The position numbers and the translations under genes are program-made. From an uncultured Bacteroidota bacterium (GTDB lineage: Bacteria > Bacteroidota > Bacteroidia > Flavobacteriales > Flavobacteriaceae): a stretch of DNA of 53,144 nt. This document shows positions 19,006-27,232 of the stretch, in pieces (the first letter of the stretch is position 1; each line of letters begins with the position of its first letter). Location of the stretch: the NCBI GenBank assembly GCA_902604715.1, contig CACLAD010000007.1, positions 1 through 53,144 on the forward strand. The letters run 5' to 3'. The notes beneath the pieces were generated by a model that was not told the origin of the DNA, did not search any database, and saw only the letters and a list, made by a program, of their open reading frames with translations.

Positions 19006-19629
19006 ATGAATAAGTATATAATTGAATTTTTAGGAACATTTTTTCTTGTATTAATTATAGGCCTTAGCCAAAATCCTGTTGCAATAGGACTAGGATTAGC
19101 TGTTTTAGTTTACATGGGTGCTCATATTTCGGGAGCACATTATAACCCTGTTGTTAGCCTTGCGATGTTAATAAATAACCAAATTGAGTTAAAAGAGTTT
19201 TCATTCTATTTGGCAAGTCAACTTTTGGGATCTGTAGTTGCCACTTATTTCATAATGTTATTAGAAAATGATTTTGAGGTAATTTCTAATACCAATGATA
19301 TTTCTAGTTTCTTCGTAGCTGAAATTTTATTTACTTTTCTTCTTGTTTTTGTAATTCTCAATGTTGCATTAAATAAAAATTTGAAAGGGAACCAGTTTTA
19401 CGGACTTGTAATTGGCTTAACAGTTACTGCTGGTGCTTTTACAGTTGGGAATATTTCAGGTGCAGTATTTAATCCAGCGGTAAGTTTTGGACCCTCATTG
19501 TTTAGTTTTATTGACCCTCAAGTAGTAGGCGCTAATATTTCCTCAAGTGACTTTTTTATCTACTACCTTATCTCAGGGATAATTGGTTCAGTTATTGCAT
19601 CCTACCTTTATAAAAAGGTATTTAGTTAA
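19006..19629 (+). CDS. MIP-family channel (atypical aquaporin)
   Basis: A 207-residue, six-span major intrinsic protein. The first pore motif is Asn47-Pro48-Val49 (AHYNPVVS) and the second is Asn156-Pro157-Ala158 (VFNPAVSFGPS). The selectivity-filter arginine that normally follows the second NPA (NPAR) is Val159 here, so water-only selectivity cannot be assumed; small neutral solutes are possible. The length is typical of compact bacterial members. It appears to be the first gene of the light-stress operon, because its final A is the A of the next gene's ATG. Confidence 0.88.
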   Translation: MNKYIIEFLGTFFLVLIIGLSQNPVAIGLGLAVLVYMGAHISGAHYNPVVSLAMLINNQIELKEFSFYLASQLLGSVVATYFIMLLENDFEVISNTNDISSFFVAEILFTFLLVFVILNVALNKNLKGNQFYGLVIGLTVTAGAFTVGNISGAVFNPAVSFGPSLFSFIDPQVVGANISSSDFFIYYLISGIIGSVIASYLYKKVFS

Positions 19630-20249
19630 TGCATTTCAGCGAGCAGGATATTGAAAATCTTGATAAAGTTTACAGAATTAATTTAATTAATTCTTGCTCT
19701 GGATATAAATCAGCAAACCTAATAGGTTCGGTTTCAGAGGAGAGAATCAATAACTTAGCGATATTTAGTTCAATAACGCACTTAGGGTCAAATCCACCCC
19801 TATTGGGATTCTTTTTAAGACCAACAGAAATTATTCCAAGGCACACCTATCTAAATATTAAAGAAAACTCATATTATACAATAAATTCAGTTCAGTTAGA
19901 ATTCGTTGATAAAGCTCACCATACTTCAGCAAAATATGACAGAAAAATTTCTGAGTTCGATATTACTAAAATTAAATCAGAAATTATAAATAATTTTCCT
20001 GCTCCATATGTAAAATCCTCATCAGTTAAGATTGGAATGAAGTTTGTAGAGGAGATAAAAATTAATTATAATAAGTCAAGATTAATTGTGGGTAAAATAG
20101 TAGAATTAAACGTTGATGATAATCTTATCACTAATGATGGGTTTATTAATTTGAGTGATGCTAAAATTGCAACTATAAGCGGCTGTGATGGCTATTCATT
20201 TCCAAAATCAAATTCAAGAAAAGGATATCAGAAACCTCAAAAGAGTTGA
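19629..20249 (+). CDS. Flavin reductase-like FMN-binding protein
   Basis: A 206-residue protein of the flavin reductase split-barrel family (RutF/DIM6 group). The [20 protein letters not shown] segment and the following [15 protein letters not shown] match the flavin-binding strand and loop, and NSYYTINSV follows as expected. It may reduce or bind flavin. Sitting next to two photolyases, a role in supplying reduced FAD or FMN is attractive but inferred. It overlaps the aquaporin stop by one base. Its stop overlaps the TTG start of the DUF2256 gene. Confidence 0.82.
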
Positions 20250-20395
20250 AAAAAATATTTTTACCTGAAAAAACATGCCCAGTCTGCAAATTCCCCTTCA
20301 AATGGAGAAAAAAGTGGAAGAGAGATTGGGATAATGTGATTTATTGTAGCAAAAAATGCAGTAAAATTGGAAGAGGTAAACTTAATATTTCCTAA
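20246..20395 (+). CDS. DUF2256 four-cysteine mini-protein, TTG start
   Basis: A 49-residue protein with the pattern [20 protein letters not shown] and then [10 protein letters not shown], which is DUF2256. Two CxxC-type pairs (C-x2-C and C-x3-C) suggest a zinc ribbon or other metal site. The only fitting start is TTG at 20246, overlapping the flavin reductase stop. Its end overlaps the photolyase start by 29 bases. DUF2256 genes are, from memory, often beside cryptochrome/photolyase genes. The function is unknown; assistance in cofactor loading or DNA binding is speculation. Confidence 0.85.
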
Positions 20396-21842
20396 TCAAC
20401 TTTTTGAAAAATCCCCGCTTTTCAACAAAAATGTTAAGACATTTTTAATTGAAGAGTATCTTTTCTTTAAGCACTTTAAATTCCATAAAAAAAAGATTTT
20501 TTTTCATAGGATAAGTATGAAAAAGTACTATGATTATTGTTTGGGTTATTTTGATAACCTTGAATATATAGATTCCAGTAGTGAAAATTCTGATATCAGA
20601 ATTCTATTACATAAGCTTTTGAGCAGTAATGTTAAGAAGATTAATTATATAGACCCATGTGATAATTGGTTAAATAAAAGAATAAATGAATCTGGAAAAT
20701 CAATAGATATTAATATTATTGACTCCCCTCAATTTATAAATTCTAATGATGAAAACTTAACTTTTTTCAACCCTGATAAAAAAAAATATTTTCAAACCAG
20801 TTTTTATAAACTACAAAGAAAAAAAATGGACATTCTAATGGTTGATGATAACCCTGAGGGTGGTAAGTGGACCTATGATGACGAAAATAGAAAAAAATAT
20901 CCCAAAAATAAGATACCACCAAAGATCACTTACCCCAAAGAGGAAATCTCATATGTTGAAGATGCATATTTGTATATAAAAAATAATTTTGAAAACAATT
21001 ATGGATCACTCAATCAAAAAATAAAATACCCTACTGATTTTCAAACAGCTAAAAATTGGTTAAATGATTTTTTAAAAAATAGATTTATTGAGTTTGGAGA
21101 TTACGAAGATGCAATCGTTCAAGAGGAATTAATATTAAATCATAGCCTACTCTCTCCTTTGATTAACTCTGGATTATTAACACCATCATATGTGGTAAAT
21201 GAGTTAAACAAATATGCAACTAAAAAAAATATACCCATTAACTCATACGAAGGAATAATTAGACAAATTATTGGCTGGAGAGAATTTATTAGAGGTGTAT
21301 ACATTTCTAAGGGTAGTGTTGAAAGAACTAAAAACTATTGGGGTTTTACAAAAAAAATGCCTGACTCTTTTTACACAGCATCAACAGGAATCAAACCGGT
21401 TGATGATAGCATTAACAAAGTTAATGACAATGCGTACTTGCATCATATTGAAAGACTAATGGTGATTGGGAATTTTATGTTTTTGTGTGAAATAAATCCG
21501 GATGATGTATACAAATGGTTTATGGAATTGTTTATTGACTCATATGATTGGGTAATGGTTCCAAATGTTTACGGAATGAGTCAGTTTGCTGATGGTGGAT
21601 TAATGTCTACAAAACCATATATAAGTAGTAGTAATTACATAATGAAAATGAGTGATTACAAAAAGGGTGAATGGCAAAAAATATGGGATGGCCTTTACTG
21701 GAGATTTATATATAAAAATCAATCCTTTTTTACATCCAACCCTAGATTATCTATGATGGTTAGAACATTAAACAAAATGAGTACTGATAAACTAAATTAT
21801 CATCTTGAAGTCTCTGAAACATTTTTATCGCAACTAAAATGA
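20367..21842 (+). CDS. PhrB/CryB-type photolyase lacking Fe-S cysteines
   Basis: A 491-residue member of the prokaryotic (6-4) photolyase/cryptochrome group (FeS-BCP, COG3046). Recognisable blocks are LIFPNQLF at the N-terminus, [15 protein letters not shown] (165-179), GWREFIRG (303-310), [12 protein letters not shown] (359-370) and [20 protein letters not shown] (391-410), the FAD pocket. Normally four cysteines hold a 4Fe-4S cluster. Here TGIKPV (340-345) and [15 protein letters not shown] (428-442) lack all of them. TTG at 20367 is taken as start because family members begin just before this motif and the next ATG is at residue 51. An in-frame A9 run lies near 20778. It overlaps the next gene by four bases. 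Confidence 0.88.
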
Positions 21843-22255
21843 TTTATAATTCGACTTATAACGATATAGAAAAGGATATAGAAACTGATAACCTGGTTGG
21901 AAAAAAATATAACTTGATAAAATCAATCAGATTGGGTGGTATTGGTTCAAAGAGATTGATTGTTGATGAATTGGGTTTGAATTTTAAAAAGCTTATTCAG
22001 CAAAAAAATGATATTATATACTCAAATATAGAGTTAAGAAAAAAAGGAATTATAGTATATGTAGTTGACAGTCAGAGAAGGTTTACTTGGGTAATTCCAT
22101 TCTATAAATTAGTTGTATATAAAACTCCTTCATTTTCTATACATTCTGATGGAAATTTTATCAGATACAGTAATAAATTGAATCATAAACAAAATTTAGT
22201 TTTTTTTAAAAAGGTACTAGATCATAAATTTAACTTTAACAAACATAATAATTAG
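21839..22255 (+). CDS. Unknown 138-residue protein in photolyase operon
   Basis: I do not recognise this protein. It starts at the ATG of an ATGA overlap with the photolyase stop. There is no signal peptide or membrane helix. Residues 50-95 alternate hydrophobic and polar residues (NIELRKKGIIVYVVDSQRRF, then WVIPFYKLVVYK), which suggests a beta-rich, PH-like or split-barrel fold. The charged helical N-terminus is rich in Asp and Lys. Tight coupling between two light-stress genes implies a role there, but nothing in the sequence shows an activity. Confidence 0.75.
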   Translation: MIYNSTYNDIEKDIETDNLVGKKYNLIKSIRLGGIGSKRLIVDELGLNFKKLIQQKNDIIYSNIELRKKGIIVYVVDSQRRFTWVIPFYKLVVYKTPSFSIHSDGNFIRYSNKLNHKQNLVFFKKVLDHKFNFNKHNN

Positions 22256-22262
22256 ATATAAT

Positions 22263-22565
22263 TTGGAAAATTTAAATGGCACAGATATTGATAGAATCAT
22301 TGAAATGGCATGGGAGGACAGAACAACTTTTGATGCTATTTCGGAGACGTTTGGCTTAAATGAGTCTGAAGTTATTTCTCTCATGCGAAGCAACCTCAAG
22401 CCTTCCAGTTTTAGGCTTTGGAGAAAAAGAGTAAGTGGAAGGAAAACAAAACATCAGGCCAAAAGAAATTTTGAGCTTGGAAGATTTAAGTGTGCAAGAC
22501 AAAGAAACATAAATCAGAATAAAATAAGTAAAAGAAATGGAAGTAAAAGATACCGAAATAATTGA
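22263..22565 (+). CDS. TIGR03643/DUF2805 family protein, TTG start
   Basis: A 100-residue protein matching TIGR03643: DRIIEMAWEDRTTFDAIS, then FGLNESEVISLMR, then KPSSFRLWRKRVSGRKTKH. The middle resembles a helix-turn-helix and the C-terminal 40 residues are strongly basic, so nucleic-acid binding is plausible. The family's function is not established, and it is often found beside cryptochrome/photolyase genes. TTG at 22263 is the first start before the conserved region. Its 3' end overlaps the next gene by 29 bases. Confidence 0.85.
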   Translation: MENLNGTDIDRIIEMAWEDRTTFDAISETFGLNESEVISLMRSNLKPSSFRLWRKRVSGRKTKHQAKRNFELGRFKCARQRNINQNKISKRNGSKRYRNN

Positions 22566-22770
22566 TAAAGCAACAGAGTTTGAAAACAGAAAACATGTAT
22601 ACAAAAGTACAAACGAAAAGATAGTTGCATCAAGAGAAGTCAAAAGTCTGATTCTTGAATTGAATGAGATTTACAAGGAAAATAAAGATTCTCACATAAT
22701 GGATATGATGAAAAGACTTACTATTATCAAAAGAAAGGTAGAAAAGAGGTTAAAAGGAAGGCCTAACTAA
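22537..22770 (+). CDS. Unknown 77-residue helical protein
   Basis: A small, charged protein with no cysteine, signal peptide or membrane helix. Almost all of it should be alpha-helical (SREVKSLILELNEIYKENKD and then MDMMKRLTIIKRKVEKRL), with a possible short coiled coil. I do not recognise a family. It starts inside the TIGR03643 gene, overlapping by 29 bases, and its stop lies two bases before the SDR start, so it is part of the operon and likely translationally coupled. A protein- or nucleic-acid-binding helper would fit its basic end (EKRLKGRPN), but this is inference. Confidence 0.72.
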   Translation: MEVKDTEIIDKATEFENRKHVYKSTNEKIVASREVKSLILELNEIYKENKDSHIMDMMKRLTIIKRKVEKRLKGRPN

Positions 22771-22772
22771 TA

Positions 22773-23456
22773 ATGAAAAATATTTTAATCATAGGTGGAA
22801 CCAAAGGAATTGGTAAATCAATTGTAGACAATCTTGTCGATTACAACAACATTACCTGTCTCAGTAGGAATAAGTCAGACTTTCAACATCAAAATTTTGT
22901 TCATAAGGAATTTGATGCCCTTTCCGATGAATATCCAGAAATAGATAACCTTGATTGTCTAATATACTGCCCTGGCAGTATCAATCTTAAACCCATTTCA
23001 ACTTTGACCTTAGAAGACTTTAGAAATGATTTTGAAATAAATGTTATTGGCGCAGTAAAAGCAATCAAAAAATACTTACCATTACTAAAAAAATCACTCT
23101 CCGCATCAATATTGTTGTTTAGTACAGTTGCAACTAAACTAGGTATGCCCTACCACGCATCCGTTTCGGTAGCCAAGTCAGGTGTTGATGGTCTTGTTAA
23201 AACTTTGGGTTCTGAATTAGCCCCCAAAGTAAGGATTAATGCAATAGCCCCTACAATTACAAATACTGACTTAGCTTCTAAAATTCTAAGAAACGAAAAG
23301 GTAATTGAAAATATGATTGAAAGACATCCACTTAAAAGAATCCTTTCTCCCAGTGAAGTAGCTAAAATGGCATCTTTCCTTATTTCTGAAGACGCATCCT
23401 CAATTTCTGGACAAATTTTTAATATGGATGCAGGAATCGTAACATTTAAAAGCTAA
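22773..23456 (+). CDS. Short-chain dehydrogenase/reductase, catalytic Tyr absent
   Basis: A 227-residue SDR-fold protein. The cofactor motif is clear (IIGGTKGIGKS, residues 6-16), and a CPGS segment stands where NNAG is usual. In the active-site region, PYHASVSVAKSGVDGL, the lysine aligns with the normal YxxxK lysine, but the residue four positions before it is Val instead of Tyr. IRNA-like sequence (KVRINAIAPTITNTDLA) and the C-terminal GQIFNMDAG complete the fold. Related operon-linked SDRs seem, from memory, to share this altered site, so it may be a binding protein or use another base. Two bases separate it from the preceding gene. Confidence 0.85.
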   Translation: MKNILIIGGTKGIGKSIVDNLVDYNNITCLSRNKSDFQHQNFVHKEFDALSDEYPEIDNLDCLIYCPGSINLKPISTLTLEDFRNDFEINVIGAVKAIKKYLPLLKKSLSASILLFSTVATKLGMPYHASVSVAKSGVDGLVKTLGSELAPKVRINAIAPTITNTDLASKILRNEKVIENMIERHPLKRILSPSEVAKMASFLISEDASSISGQIFNMDAGIVTFKS

Positions 23457-23460
23457 TATT

Positions 23461-24018
23461 ATGATTAAGACAATTAAAATATTACTAGTCCTCATGTTTT
23501 CATTTTTTAGTAGTGACTTTAACAAAAAAAAATCAAAAACAGCCTCTATGTCAATTTATGATATCTCAATTAAAAATATTCAAGGAAGTGAAATATCACT
23601 AAGTGATTATAAAGGTAAATATATATTATTCGTAAACGTTGCTTCAAATTGCGGTTTTACTAGACAGTATAAAGATCTTCAACAATTATTTGATCAAAAC
23701 TCTGATAGATTAGTTGTGATAGGCGTCCCGTGTAACCAGTTTGGTTCTCAGGAGCCGGGAAATGAGGACCAAATTTCAATATTTTGTTCTGAAAAATATA
23801 ATGTTACCTTTCCATTGACTGAAAAAACTTTTGTAAGAGGCTCAAATCAACACCCATTATACAAATGGCTTACATCTAAGGAGCTGAATGGGAGGAAAAA
23901 TTCAAGTGTAAAGTGGAATTTTCAAAAATACTTAGTTGATAAGGATGGAAATCTAATTGATTATTGGTACTCTTTAACCAGCCCTATGAGTTCCAAAATT
24001 ACGAACTATATTAAATGA
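23461..24018 (+). CDS. Glutathione peroxidase family thiol peroxidase
   Basis: A 185-residue GPx-family enzyme using cysteine. The catalytic residues are Cys64 in NVASNCGFT, Gln98 in FGSQEPG, Trp152 and Asn153 in KWNFQK. Cys109 in FCSEKYNVTFP is a likely resolving cysteine, which would make it thioredoxin-type rather than glutathione-dependent. A hydrophobic N-terminus (residues 6-18) may be a signal peptide, placing it in the periplasm. The organism makes bacillithiol (bshB1 in this window), another reason to doubt glutathione as donor. Its ATGA overlap with the next gene shows operon membership. Confidence 0.9.
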   Translation: MIKTIKILLVLMFSFFSSDFNKKKSKTASMSIYDISIKNIQGSEISLSDYKGKYILFVNVASNCGFTRQYKDLQQLFDQNSDRLVVIGVPCNQFGSQEPGNEDQISIFCSEKYNVTFPLTEKTFVRGSNQHPLYKWLTSKELNGRKNSSVKWNFQKYLVDKDGNLIDYWYSLTSPMSSKITNYIK

Positions 24019-24476
24019 AATTTTTTAGATTAGAAAAGTCTATAAAATTACCGGTTACCATTGAAGAGTGCTGGGAATTCTTTTCAACTCCCAAAAATCT
24101 CAAGATAATTACCCCTGACTACATGGGGTTTTGCATCATTGATGAAGAAAAAACGAAAATGTATTCTGGTCAGATTATAAAGTATAATGTGACTCCGATT
24201 TTTGGAATAAATATGAAATGGGTAACAGAAATTTCACATGTAAAAGAATTTAAATTTTTTGTTGATGAACAAAGATTTGGTCCTTATAAATTTTGGCATC
24301 ATAAGCATATTTTTGAAGTAATAGACGGTGGAGTAAAAGTAATTGATATTTTAGATTATGCACTGCCTTTTGGATTTTTAGGATCATTTTTTCATCCTAT
24401 CACTATCAAACCAAAGTTGAATGAAATTTTTAATTACAGAGAAAAAAAGTTAATTGAAATTTTCGGAAAATTATGA
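24015..24476 (+). CDS. SRPBCC (START/Bet v1-like) ligand-binding protein
   Basis: A 153-residue protein with the SRPBCC pattern. It starts LEKSIKLPVTIEECWEFFST, followed by PKNLKIITPDYMGF and a C-terminal helix LNEIFNYREKKLIEIFG. The middle section (MKWVTEISHVKEFKFFVDEQ and KFWHHKHIFEV) matches the group often called cell-division-inhibitor-like, found beside photolyases. It should have a deep hydrophobic pocket for a lipid or pigment. No ligand can be named. It overlaps GPx by four bases and the CPD photolyase by four bases. Confidence 0.82.
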   Translation: MKFFRLEKSIKLPVTIEECWEFFSTPKNLKIITPDYMGFCIIDEEKTKMYSGQIIKYNVTPIFGINMKWVTEISHVKEFKFFVDEQRFGPYKFWHHKHIFEVIDGGVKVIDILDYALPFGFLGSFFHPITIKPKLNEIFNYREKKLIEIFGKL

Positions 24477-25771
24477 TGGAAGAGGTTAATGTTTTTTGGT
24501 TTAGAAGAGATTTGAGATTGTACGATAATTCAGGATTATCTGCAGCTACAAATTCCAAAATTAAAGTTATACCCATATTTATTTTTGACACTTCAATAAC
24601 TGATAAACTCCCGAATAATGATAGAAGAATAAACTTTATATTCGACAACCTAGTCAAGATTGATTTAGAATTAAAAAATAAATTTAATTCGTCAATTAAT
24701 GTGTTCAGAGGCAACCCCAAAGAAATTTTCAAGGAATTAATCAGGGATTACAAAATAAATTCTGTTTTTACAAATAATGATTACGAGCCATATGCTAATT
24801 CAAGAGATAAATCAATTAAAAGTTTATTAGAAAAAAATCAAATTAAGTTTAAATCCTTCAAGGATCAGGTAGTATTCGAAAAAAATGAAGTTGTAAAAGA
24901 CGATGGTAGCCCATATGTTGTTTTTACTCCATATATGAGAAAATGGAAAGCTAGCTTGAATGAAGACCTATCTGAACTTAATGAAAAAGAGGTTGTTAAT
25001 AATTTTTACAACTCTCCTGTTTCTGCTCTAAAGAAATTAAATGAATATGGTTTTATCGAAAATGATAAAAAAATTGAAGCTTTCAAATTAAATAAGGATA
25101 TAGTTACAAAATATGCGGATACAAGAAACTTTCCTTCAATTAATTCTACATCAAAGATTGGCCCTTATCTAAGGTTTGGAACTGTCAGTGTAAGAAAAAT
25201 TGTTTCAGGATTATTAAAATTTAAAGACCAAACATTTTTAAATGAACTGATTTGGAGAGAGTTTTTTATGCAAATATTGTTTCATTTTCCTCATACTGCA
25301 GAAAATAGTTTTAAATCAAAATATGATAAGATTATATGGCTAAATGATCATAAATCGTTTGAAGCATGGAAAAACGGAGAAACTGGTTTCCCTTTAGTTG
25401 ATGCAGGCATGAAAGAACTTAATAACACAGGTTTTATGCACAACAGAGTTAGAATGATAACTGCAAGCTTTTTATGCAAACATCTATTAGTTGATTGGAG
25501 ATTAGGAGAAAAATATTTTGCCCTCAAACTTAATGACTATGAAATGGCTAGTAACGTTGGTAATTGGCAGTGGGCAAGTGGATCAGGGGTTGACGCTGCA
25601 CCTTACTTCAGAATCTTCAATCCTCATACTCAAATTATAAAATTTGATAAGAGTAGGGAATACATTAATAAGTGGGTAAATACTGAATCCGAATCTTACC
25701 CGGATGAGATTGTTGACCACAAAGTTGCCAGACAAAGGTGCTTAGATACTTACAAAATGTATTTAGACTAA
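24473..25771 (+). CDS. phr: Class I CPD photolyase
   Basis: A 432-residue deoxyribodipyrimidine photolyase that repairs cyclobutane pyrimidine dimers with light through FADH-. It begins VNVFWFRRDLRLYDNSGL, the canonical antenna-domain start. The FAD domain has IGPYLRFGTVS, LIWREFFMQ, GFPLVDAGMKELNNTG and the signature NWQWASGSGVDAAPYFRIFN. Length is a little short of the E. coli enzyme but complete. The start is an ATGATG doublet overlapping the SRPBCC stop, so either codon may be used. It is the last clear member of the light-stress operon; the following M20 gene is 30 bases on. Confidence 0.93.
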   Translation: MMEEVNVFWFRRDLRLYDNSGLSAATNSKIKVIPIFIFDTSITDKLPNNDRRINFIFDNLVKIDLELKNKFNSSINVFRGNPKEIFKELIRDYKINSVFTNNDYEPYANSRDKSIKSLLEKNQIKFKSFKDQVVFEKNEVVKDDGSPYVVFTPYMRKWKASLNEDLSELNEKEVVNNFYNSPVSALKKLNEYGFIENDKKIEAFKLNKDIVTKYADTRNFPSINSTSKIGPYLRFGTVSVRKIVSGLLKFKDQTFLNELIWREFFMQILFHFPHTAENSFKSKYDKIIWLNDHKSFEAWKNGETGFPLVDAGMKELNNTGFMHNRVRMITASFLCKHLLVDWRLGEKYFALKLNDYEMASNVGNWQWASGSGVDAAPYFRIFNPHTQIIKFDKSREYINKWVNTESESYPDEIVDHKVARQRCLDTYKMYLD

Positions 25772-25801: not shown

Positions 25802-27232
25802 ATGATAAAGTATCGATTATTCTTTGGTTTACTATTTTTTGTAAGCCCTCATGTTTTTTCTCAAAATTTAGACGAGACAAAAAAAAATATTGTTAAGTCC
25901 ATTGAAAATCACGAAGAAGAAATAATAAAAATCAGTGATAAAATATGGGAATTAGCAGAAACAGCTTTTAACGAATATGAATCATCTAAACTTCTTTCTG
26001 ATTATGCTGAGGCAAATGGTTTTAGTCTTGAAAGAGGTGTAGCTGGAATGCCTACAGCATTCGTTGCAACATACGGGCAGGGTAAACCTGTTATAAGTGT
26101 TTTAGGCGAGTTTGATGCTCTTCCTGGCCTATCTCAAGATACAACTCCAACTAAAAAACCCCTAACAGACGGAGGAAATGGCCACGGTTGTGGGCATAAC
26201 TTATTTGGGGCTGCAAGTCTTGCTTCTGCAATTGCTATAAAAGAACAGATTGAAAATGGAGATTTAAAAGGGACTGTTAAATTCTTTGGAACACCTTCAG
26301 AAGAAAAGTTTTTTGGAAAAATATGGATGGTTGATGCAGGTTTATGGGATGATGTAGATGTAAATATAAGCTGGCACCCCGGATACTATACTGAGTCTGA
26401 TGTTCAGTCAACATTATCTTTAATTGATTTTCAAGTTGAATTTTTTGGTCAGGCAGCTCACGCATCAATGGATCCATGGAACGGAAGAAGTGCTTCTGAT
26501 GCCTTGGAATTATATACCTCTGCAATAAATTATTATCGTGAACATGTTCAACCAACTGTTAGAATGCATTATCACATTCAAGATGGTGGAAAGGTTGTGA
26601 ATGTGGTTCCTGATTACTCTAAATTATGGGTTCGTGTGAGAGACTCGGACAGAGCTGGAATGACCCCAGTATATGAAAGGGTAATGGAAATGGCAGAAGG
26701 TGCTGCAATTCTTGCAAATGTTGACTATAAGGTGACATTAATTTCTGGAATATATGAGGTCTTAGTCAATAGAAGTGGCGGTAAAATTATGCAAAAAAAC
26801 TTAGAGCTATTAGGTCCAATAGAATACAATAGTGATGAAATAAATTTTGCCAAAGAATTACAACTTACTCTAGACAAGCCACAAGTGGGCTTAAATGGAA
26901 TGATATACCCCCTTAGAGAAACTATAATTGACGGTGGCGGTGGATCTACTGATGTCGGAGATGTTAGCTGGAACGTTCCAAATATTAGTTTATCTGTAAC
27001 AACAGCACCATACGAAACACCATGGCACTCTTGGGCTGTAGTAGCTTGCGGTGGAATGAGTATTGGACACAAAGGTGCAATCTATGCATCAAAGGCAATG
27101 GCTTTTACAATGTCAGACTTATTTAAGAGTGATAAACTTGTGAAAGAAATAAGGGATGAATTTTTATTGAGAAAGGGTGATCATGTATATGAACCAATGA
27201 TTGATGGTCCACCTCCTATTAATCAAAATTAA
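25802..27232 (+). CDS. Exported M20 amidohydrolase (AbgB-like)
   Basis: A 476-residue zinc amidohydrolase of the M20D group, similar to the p-aminobenzoyl-glutamate hydrolase subunit AbgB. A signal peptide (LFFGLLFFVSPHVFS, then Q21) is unusual for AbgB and suggests export. The metal site includes NGHGCGHNLFGAA, the EEK after TPSE, and a central dimerisation domain (GQAAHASMDPWNGRSASDAL). The true substrate is open: an aminoacylated amide outside the cytoplasm is likely. An A9 run near 25879 stays in frame. Its stop overlaps the convergent murA stop by four bases. Confidence 0.87.
   Translation: MIKYRLFFGLLFFVSPHVFSQNLDETKKNIVKSIENHEEEIIKISDKIWELAETAFNEYESSKLLSDYAEANGFSLERGVAGMPTAFVATYGQGKPVISVLGEFDALPGLSQDTTPTKKPLTDGGNGHGCGHNLFGAASLASAIAIKEQIENGDLKGTVKFFGTPSEEKFFGKIWMVDAGLWDDVDVNISWHPGYYTESDVQSTLSLIDFQVEFFGQAAHASMDPWNGRSASDALELYTSAINYYREHVQPTVRMHYHIQDGGKVVNVVPDYSKLWVRVRDSDRAGMTPVYERVMEMAEGAAILANVDYKVTLISGIYEVLVNRSGGKIMQKNLELLGPIEYNSDEINFAKELQLTLDKPQVGLNGMIYPLRETIIDGGGGSTDVGDVSWNVPNISLSVTTAPYETPWHSWAVVACGGMSIGHKGAIYASKAMAFTMSDLFKSDKLVKEIRDEFLLRKGDHVYEPMIDGPPPINQN

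Follow-up and report, generated by a model that had tools for sequence, protein, structure and literature searches.

Eleven tightly packed genes on a contig from an uncultured flavobacterium are, on sequence comparison, conserved as a set, and it is likely that they are read as one transcript and form a compact module for photorepair and photo-oxidative stress in a member of the Flavobacteriaceae that carries a rhodopsin and is probably marine. The contig (CACLAD010000007.1, C7 of assembly GCA_902604715.1, here G000; 1.39 Mb, 80% complete) was analysed over its 53,144 nucleotides, referred to as the window, and the genes occupy positions 19006-25771 of the plus strand. An aquaporin gene is followed by genes for a flavin reductase, a DUF2256 protein, a PhrB-type photolyase homologue of the DPRP family, a 138-residue protein (U138), a TIGR03643 protein, a 77-residue protein (U77), a short-chain dehydrogenase/reductase (SDR), a glutathione-peroxidase family protein (GPx), an SRPBCC-like protein and a cyclobutane pyrimidine dimer (CPD) photolyase. 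The initial annotation of this DNA had placed all eleven on one strand, and every gene was found there at the coordinates it gave. From 5' to 3' the ten junctions measure -1, -4, -29, -4, +7, -29, +2, +4, -4 and -4 bases, so the tight coupling described initially stands, except that two overlaps reach 29 bases where overlaps or gaps of 2-8 bases had mostly been reported. The aquaporin does share its last base with the next gene, as had been noted: the final A of its TAA stop codon (19627-19629) is the first base of the flavin reductase ATG (19629). TTG is the listed start of three genes (DUF2256, the PhrB-type gene and TIGR03643). A DUF2911 gene 54 bases upstream of the operon is oriented away from it.

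Absence of the gene set from relatives had been named initially as the outcome that would speak against such a module, and the set proved to be conserved. A DPRP profile was searched against named genomes, and the ten genes that follow the aquaporin were found in the same order in 12 of the best 80 of at least 576 loci, a count that takes each related genome singly and does not represent independent events. The 80 loci were picked by similarity to DPRP proteins that lack the iron-sulphur cluster (Fe-free forms), and the Fe-free share among them is uninformative on frequency. Three loci (L084, L085 and L086) have the compact form headed by an aquaporin, and nine (L094, L101, L108, L113, L116, L121, L123, L127 and L137), including Winogradskyella and Polaribacter loci, have an extended form. 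The same order was present in 2 of the 36 loci that a U138 search gave in other genomes of the order (L032 and L035), within an extended operon that begins with an ABC1 kinase, flavin reductase, DUF2867, DUF2256, a DASH cryptochrome and DPRP, continues with a second cryptochrome/photolyase, U138, TIGR03643, FolE (L032 only) and U77 (two copies in L035), and ends with SDR, GPx, DUF6435, TspO, SRPBCC and CPD photolyase. The DUF6435 proteins of the extended operons score just below the family cut-off.

The compact order is maintained across L084, L085 and L086 at 54-95% amino acid identity. L084, from a single-cell genome, is 86-95% identical to the window over the eleven genes, and the ratios of non-synonymous to synonymous substitution rates (dN/dS) against it were 0.037 for U138, 0.078 for TIGR03643, 0.092 for U77 and 0.044-0.097 for the other eight genes. 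All eleven genes are thus under purifying selection, and these ratios indicate that the eleven open reading frames are real genes. Among the matches listed, these three loci are the closest named relatives; they come from single-cell and metagenome assemblies labelled Bacteroidetes, and the host is probably a marine flavobacterium of the sunlit ocean. Fifty-six of the 80 loci have at least 4 kb on each side of the DPRP gene. Within 7 kb on the same strand, these well-flanked loci contain DUF2256 (46), TIGR03643 (33), flavin reductase (26), U138 (21), SDR (20), SRPBCC (16), U77 (12), GPx (11) and CPD photolyase (7); the CPD photolyase is undercounted at this limit, because in the extended operons it is ~7 kb away from DPRP. 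U138, U77 and TIGR03643 were counted in this tally by profile, and the neighbour labels around the 80 loci are best tblastn matches at E<=1e-3, which may include paralogous SDR or peroxidase genes. The window cluster is therefore a condensed member of a wider and variable family of photorepair clusters.

The PhrB-type gene (20367..21842) encodes an Fe-free homologue of the prokaryotic (6-4) photolyases, which are its best solved relatives, and its N-terminal domain matches the DPRP family (PF04244, E 5.6e-43, 147.8 bits against a cut-off of 22.1). Repair by AfPhrB requires H366 and Y424, and its photoreduction involves electron transfer through W342 and W390 (PMC4619345; this and the other papers cited are drawn on from excerpts of their text). 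The equivalents of H366, L370, W390, M410, Y424 and Y430, numbered as in AfPhrB by hand transfer from an alignment with a solved relative, are retained in 90/90 aligned proteins including that of the window. Y391 is replaced by F in 88/90 and W342 by Y in 76/90, and the electron chain of the window enzyme carries both changes (Y336 for W342 and F385 for Y391). None of the four [4Fe-4S] cysteines that mark the FeS-BCP class is present in the window protein, which also lacks ten alignment columns of the cluster loop; 88/90 proteins lack all four cysteines and the same loop columns. When 24 loci picked to bring in more distant members were added, 95 proteins had none of the four cysteines, 19 had all four and none was intermediate; one of the 95 (L189) is encoded in two pieces, the longer of which ends before the loop, and was judged at one site. 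Two-piece DPRP genes were seen in L189 (G070:C1:254455-255941) and in G075:C103, possibly through a frameshift or sequencing error.

An Fe-free subgroup M that includes PromaPL has been defined alongside the Fe-S type represented by AfPhrB, RsCryB and SePhrB (PMC9178010). In the excerpt of that paper, subgroups Chl, HC, Ac and M have a broken electron chain, and 37/50 of their members taken together have a Met near FAD N5. The window enzyme, compared by residue features, resembles subgroup M in its DPRP domain, its repair residues, the absence of the four cysteines, its broken chain and a Met near N5 (M397, invariant in 7/7). This Fe-free enzyme type is therefore already known, and we dropped the loss of the cluster as a novelty because subgroup M is in print. 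What differs from the subgroup M report is that the Fe-free form here fills a conserved operon slot that is also held by the Fe-S form.

Both forms were found in the same operon place within the same order. A DPRP gene flanked by a DASH-type gene and TIGR03643 occurs both with the Fe-S form (L187) and with the Fe-free form (L186 and L218). L035 and L032 are 53-84% identical over their other operon genes (59-84% without TspO, at 53%) and 33% identical in the DPRP slot, and the L035 DPRP shares 66% identity with the Fe-S form found in L037. Trees were compared for the 26 of 28 listed loci that have both DPRP and DASH genes. The DPRP tree separates Fe-S and Fe-free proteins by one branch with a single change (100/100), whereas the DASH tree needs four changes of label, at least three of them forced by well-supported branches, and places L035 inside an otherwise Fe-free group (97/95). 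The single split in the DPRP tree, set against three or more changes in the DASH tree, suggests that Fe-S and Fe-free enzymes have repeatedly replaced one another in the (6-4) photolyase slot. Two points count against repeated refilling: L216 and L210 were flagged as long, and L216 and L135 as odd in composition, in the DASH tree; and the DASH gene may itself have moved, to which the L035 identities provide an answer for L035 only. We put forward tentatively, as a reading slightly less likely than not to be right, that the cluster is a modular island in which Fe-S and Fe-free forms are functionally interchangeable and that U138 and U77 found new light-accessory families, U138 being of PH type. 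If this is true, U138 would serve photolyases/cryptochromes as well as carotenoid systems. According to the excerpt of PMC12082625, it is not known what purpose the [4Fe-4S] cluster serves in (6-4) photolyases. A slot that accepts either form provides matched natural pairs in which the role of the cluster can be studied, as can the question of whether scarce iron in surface seawater favours enzymes without it.

U138 (21839..22255) belongs to an unnamed family with a predicted PH-like fold, as suggested by its alignment, structure model, Foldseek matches and gene contexts. No Pfam, NCBIfam or PHROG family matched it, and its profile found nothing below E 0.09 among the sequences of solved structures. 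It occurs in 37/196 genomes of the order, its own included, and, by profile, in 17/395 genomes of the phylum, 16 of them within its own family. In an alignment of 33 sequences the start residue, G21, G36, S37 and G70 are invariant, and E65, R67 and F122 are present in at least 90%. The model (predicted local distance difference test score, pLDDT, 92.3; predicted template modelling score 0.87) has six strands after residue 59, a long C-terminal helix and extra N-terminal helices. The leading Foldseek matches are to entries with what we take, for some of them, to be PH, FERM or PTB domains, with probabilities up to 1.00; the best E-value was 0.012 (probability 0.97, template modelling (TM) score 0.38), and chains of 1foe gave TM scores of 0.52-0.55. 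The U138 model resembles PH-like domain proteins in its strand-rich fold closed by a long C-terminal helix, but differs from them in its lack of a sequence match, its low structural scores and its extra N-terminal helices.

The neighbourhoods of U138 were surveyed at 41 loci (36 matches from the order outside the window and five from the phylum search), and the counts are raw proximities. A photolyase or cryptochrome gene lies within 5 kb in 20 of them, and another light-cluster gene (DUF2867, ABC1, TIGR03643, CarH-like regulator, flavin reductase or CrtI-like gene) in 11 more, giving 31/41. The CarH-like gene, a B12-binding MerR regulator, is within 5 kb in 9/41; in six loci (L058 and L063-L067) it is convergent with U138 and the 3' ends overlap by 8-11 bases. 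Six further loci (L036, L042, L044, L047, L056 and L057) contain a three-gene unit with overlapping ends, made up of U138, a second flavin-reductase type (158-160 residues) and a short photolyase-like protein. In L038 and L039, U138 overlaps an ABC1 kinase gene. In L052 (1070-3700) and L055 it lies ~105 bases from an amino-oxidase/CrtI-like gene. In L052, where it was scanned, the CrtI-like gene has a carotenoid biosynthesis gene after it, and both of these gene clusters recur in L055. Given the carotenoid and DUF2867 contexts, U138 was dropped as a strict photolyase partner. On its sequence contexts and model, U138 is most likely an adaptor or ligand-binding accessory for light-exposed systems generally, rather than a cofactor loader for a single photolyase. 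The initial suggestion that the unnamed proteins are working parts of the module is upheld as far as their conserved membership goes, and is loosened for U138, which is not tied to photolyase alone. The roles offered initially for these proteins, in flavin supply, photolyase cofactor loading or the handling of a secondary UV product, are conjectural.

U77 (22537..22770) represents a second unnamed family, small and conserved according to its alignments, linkage and dN/dS. No Pfam or NCBIfam family matched it, its best matches are PHROGs of unknown function at E 0.049 or worse, and its profile found nothing below E 0.09 among solved structures; it is probably helical, judging by its sequence. 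Twelve copies were found in 8/196 genomes. Six are inside the operons of G000, G079, G138 and G163, and in G167 and G102 U77 lies 48 and 40 bases, respectively, from TIGR03643. One copy of G072 precedes SRPBCC and CPD photolyase and the other runs divergently to a DUF6435-like gene. In G138 a third copy (L177:5670-6264) lies 1 base from DUF2237, a family without an assigned function that the excerpt of PMC5932025 ties to phototrophy. By these linkages U77 is a conserved small family that travels with the same genes, and we propose that it is a small accessory protein of the photorepair module.

The DUF2256 protein (20246..20395; 49 residues with a CxxC...CxxxC pattern; PF10013, 1.9e-17, 63.5 bits, cut-off 25) and the TIGR03643/DUF2805 protein (22263..22565; 128.8 against 66.55 for TIGR03643 and 126.4 against 22.5 for DUF2805) are members of their families by curated cut-offs. 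The literature matches listed, taken by title, gave no published function for either family, no title naming photolyase and no paper combining two of TIGR03643, DUF2256 and photolyase. DUF2805 was correlated with translation genes in metagenomes (PMC3597751, excerpt). DUF2256 had no relative below E 0.27 among solved structures, and the TIGR03643 profile found nothing below E 0.09 there. TIGR03643 was found in 85/196 genomes of the order, some through weak matches from a second, distant group. Its model (pLDDT 73.9) has helices at 6-18, 23-30, 34-44 and 47-57, a possible helix-turn-helix (HTH) followed by a basic tail, and Pfam HTH families matched below their cut-offs (HTH_19, E 0.01; Sigma70_r4, E 0.16). 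It is probably a small DNA-binding protein. U138, U77, TIGR03643 and DUF2256 are conserved proteins with no assigned function for which the neighbours predict a role in light stress, and all four are accessible in cultured relatives such as Winogradskyella.

The remaining members are recognisable by family. The first gene (19006..19629) encodes an aquaporin of the MIP family (PF00230, 2.9e-32, 112.7 bits, cut-off 25) and the second (19629..20249) a flavin reductase domain protein (PF01613, 5e-15, 56.4 bits, cut-off 27). The SDR (22773..23456) matched PF13561 (adh_short_C2; 1.2e-37, 130.2 bits, cut-off 27), and the GPx protein (23461..24018) matched PF00255 (GSHPx; 1.3e-37, 128.1 bits, cut-off 27) and is of the cysteine type, with Cys within ASNCGFT, which we take to be the glutathione peroxidase Cys motif. 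No Pfam family matched the SRPBCC-like protein (24015..24476) itself; its label, weaker than the others, comes from relatives, 10/13 aligned members of which matched Polyketide_cyc (PF03364) at E<=1 (best 9.7e-5). The last gene (24473..25771) has both the DNA_photolyase (PF00875) and FAD_binding_7 (PF03441) domains. Its nearest relatives in a search of solved-structure sequences are CPD photolyases, presumably of class I, and it scored below the cut-offs of the curated NCBIfam photolyase models (321 vs 884.6 and 310.5 vs 506). Thirty bases downstream of the operon lies a further plus-strand gene (25802..27232) for a peptidase homologue, presumably of M20 type, which is possibly co-transcribed with it. 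In L084, too, the CPD photolyase has an M20-like gene after it, and so it does in L037, a more distant locus (70% identity); in L085 and L086 no such gene was found.

Going by these families, blue or near-UV light would drive two FAD photolyases that cover both main UV lesions, the class I-type CPD photolyase and the Fe-free prokaryotic (6-4) photolyase. Reduced flavin probably comes from the flavin reductase, a useful supply given the altered photoreduction chain of the Fe-free enzyme. Peroxides, carbonyls or lipid products generated by the same light are probably removed by the peroxidase, the SDR and the SRPBCC protein. U138, U77, TIGR03643 and DUF2256 would be accessory members. The cluster as a whole would behave as an island with exchangeable parts. 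The photoprotection or repair module proposed initially is thus still the best reading, the recognisable members being photorepair and redox genes of a conserved set. A grouping of photolyase and related genes, lying within 20 kb of one another in at least 10 genomes, is enriched in marine Flavobacteriia that carry proteorhodopsin (PMC5932025), and the window genome, probably marine and flavobacterial, likewise has a rhodopsin. The window operon is a variant of this published kind of cluster; the excerpt of PMC5932025 gives neither gene order nor members, is silent on the unnamed proteins and mentions neither the compact arrangement of eleven genes nor an Fe-free slot. Among the literature matches listed (titles and abstract openings, few subscription journals), none dealt with the operon order, the U138 or U77 families or the exchange of Fe-S and Fe-free forms. 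Pseudomonas has a light-inducible set under the class II LitR regulators PplR/PmlR, in which PhrB, CryB, FolE and SDR genes, along with some of unassigned function, are clustered or induced by light (PMC9758184, excerpt).

Several observations weigh against a single light-responsive module. Unlike the PplR/PmlR system, no B12-dependent MerR regulator was found in G000 when the CarH-like protein of L036 was used as query, a search of an 80% complete assembly without a positive control. Promoter-like sites (40 vs 40.0 expected) and terminator-like sites (3 vs 2.5) were at shuffle level. TTTG/TAnnTTTG is the flavobacterial promoter pattern; it occurred 22 times vs 21.3 expected, and none was just upstream of 19006. 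The stretch upstream of the aquaporin aligns among four relatives and yielded no defensible motif. Across all 80 loci, many of which are short, U138 was within 7 kb on the same strand in 27, SRPBCC in 18, U77 in 13, GPx in 12 and CPD photolyase in 9, so that the full gene set is one of several arrangements. In the DPRP protein of the window, the FAD-binding domain scored 22.9, below the Pfam cut-off of 27. For U138, TM scores normalised to the query were 0.27-0.55 and E was never under 0.012 in the best 50 of 673 matches, and in 10/41 loci no light-cluster gene of those searched lay within 5 kb, two of these loci (L041 and L043) lying within 214 bases and one (L181) within 2.2 kb of a contig end. 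The U77 copy of G030 has no recognised light neighbour, and the TIGR03643 model is weak to middling, with fold matches only at E >= 1.3.

Genome streamlining alone could have packed these genes, leaving the unnamed proteins without a working link to photorepair. The 1.39 Mb assembly would suit this explanation, as would the aquaporin, a same-strand neighbour within 7 kb in just 4 of the best 80 loci, and the patchy downstream M20 gene; yet the same genes occur in the same order with more partners in genomes of 3.5 and 4.5 Mb (G138 and G163), and the set is also found in the named Winogradskyella and Polaribacter loci, so we give streamlining little credence. Slightly less improbable, though still unlikely, is that the main role of the DPRP protein is to sense blue light, as a receptor comparable to Rhodobacter CryB, with the operon as its regulatory output and TIGR03643 as a DNA-binding partner. 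CryB, of the same family, is reported to affect gene expression (PMC9178010), and the weakly HTH-like TIGR03643 accompanies DPRP in 33/56 well-flanked loci. The HTH evidence is weak, however, the six repair-linked residues are retained throughout the aligned proteins, and receptor and repair roles are not mutually exclusive.

That the Fe-free protein is a decayed, inactive photolyase is hardly credible: the ligands that PhrB needs are absent, PhrB cysteine mutants were insoluble or not expressed (PMC4619345) and the electron chain is altered, but its dN/dS against L084 is 0.097, and the retained repair residues and identical missing loop columns in the aligned proteins speak against decay. The alternative for U138 that deserves most attention, unlikely as it also appears, is that it binds pigment or membrane lipid for carotenoid or rhodopsin systems and is in the operon solely through shared light regulation. 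PH-like folds often bind lipids or peptides, which favours this alternative, as do the CrtI-like and carotenoid neighbours in L052 and L055 and the overlap with ABC1 kinase genes. The carotenoid pair is, however, the sole light neighbour in two loci, as against the 20/41 with a photolyase or cryptochrome.

Elsewhere in G000, a rhodopsin gene was found at G000:C9:37952-38620, and because of it the organism is probably photoheterotrophic. The genome also encodes, outside the operon, a short photolyase-like protein (G000:C27, L196:2358-3461; 52% identical to that of L036), a CryB-like protein (G000:C17, L197:6443-7903; 45%) and FolE (G000:C21, L198:3255-3947; 62%). In L032 and other relatives, genes for CryB-like and FolE proteins are part of the extended operon.

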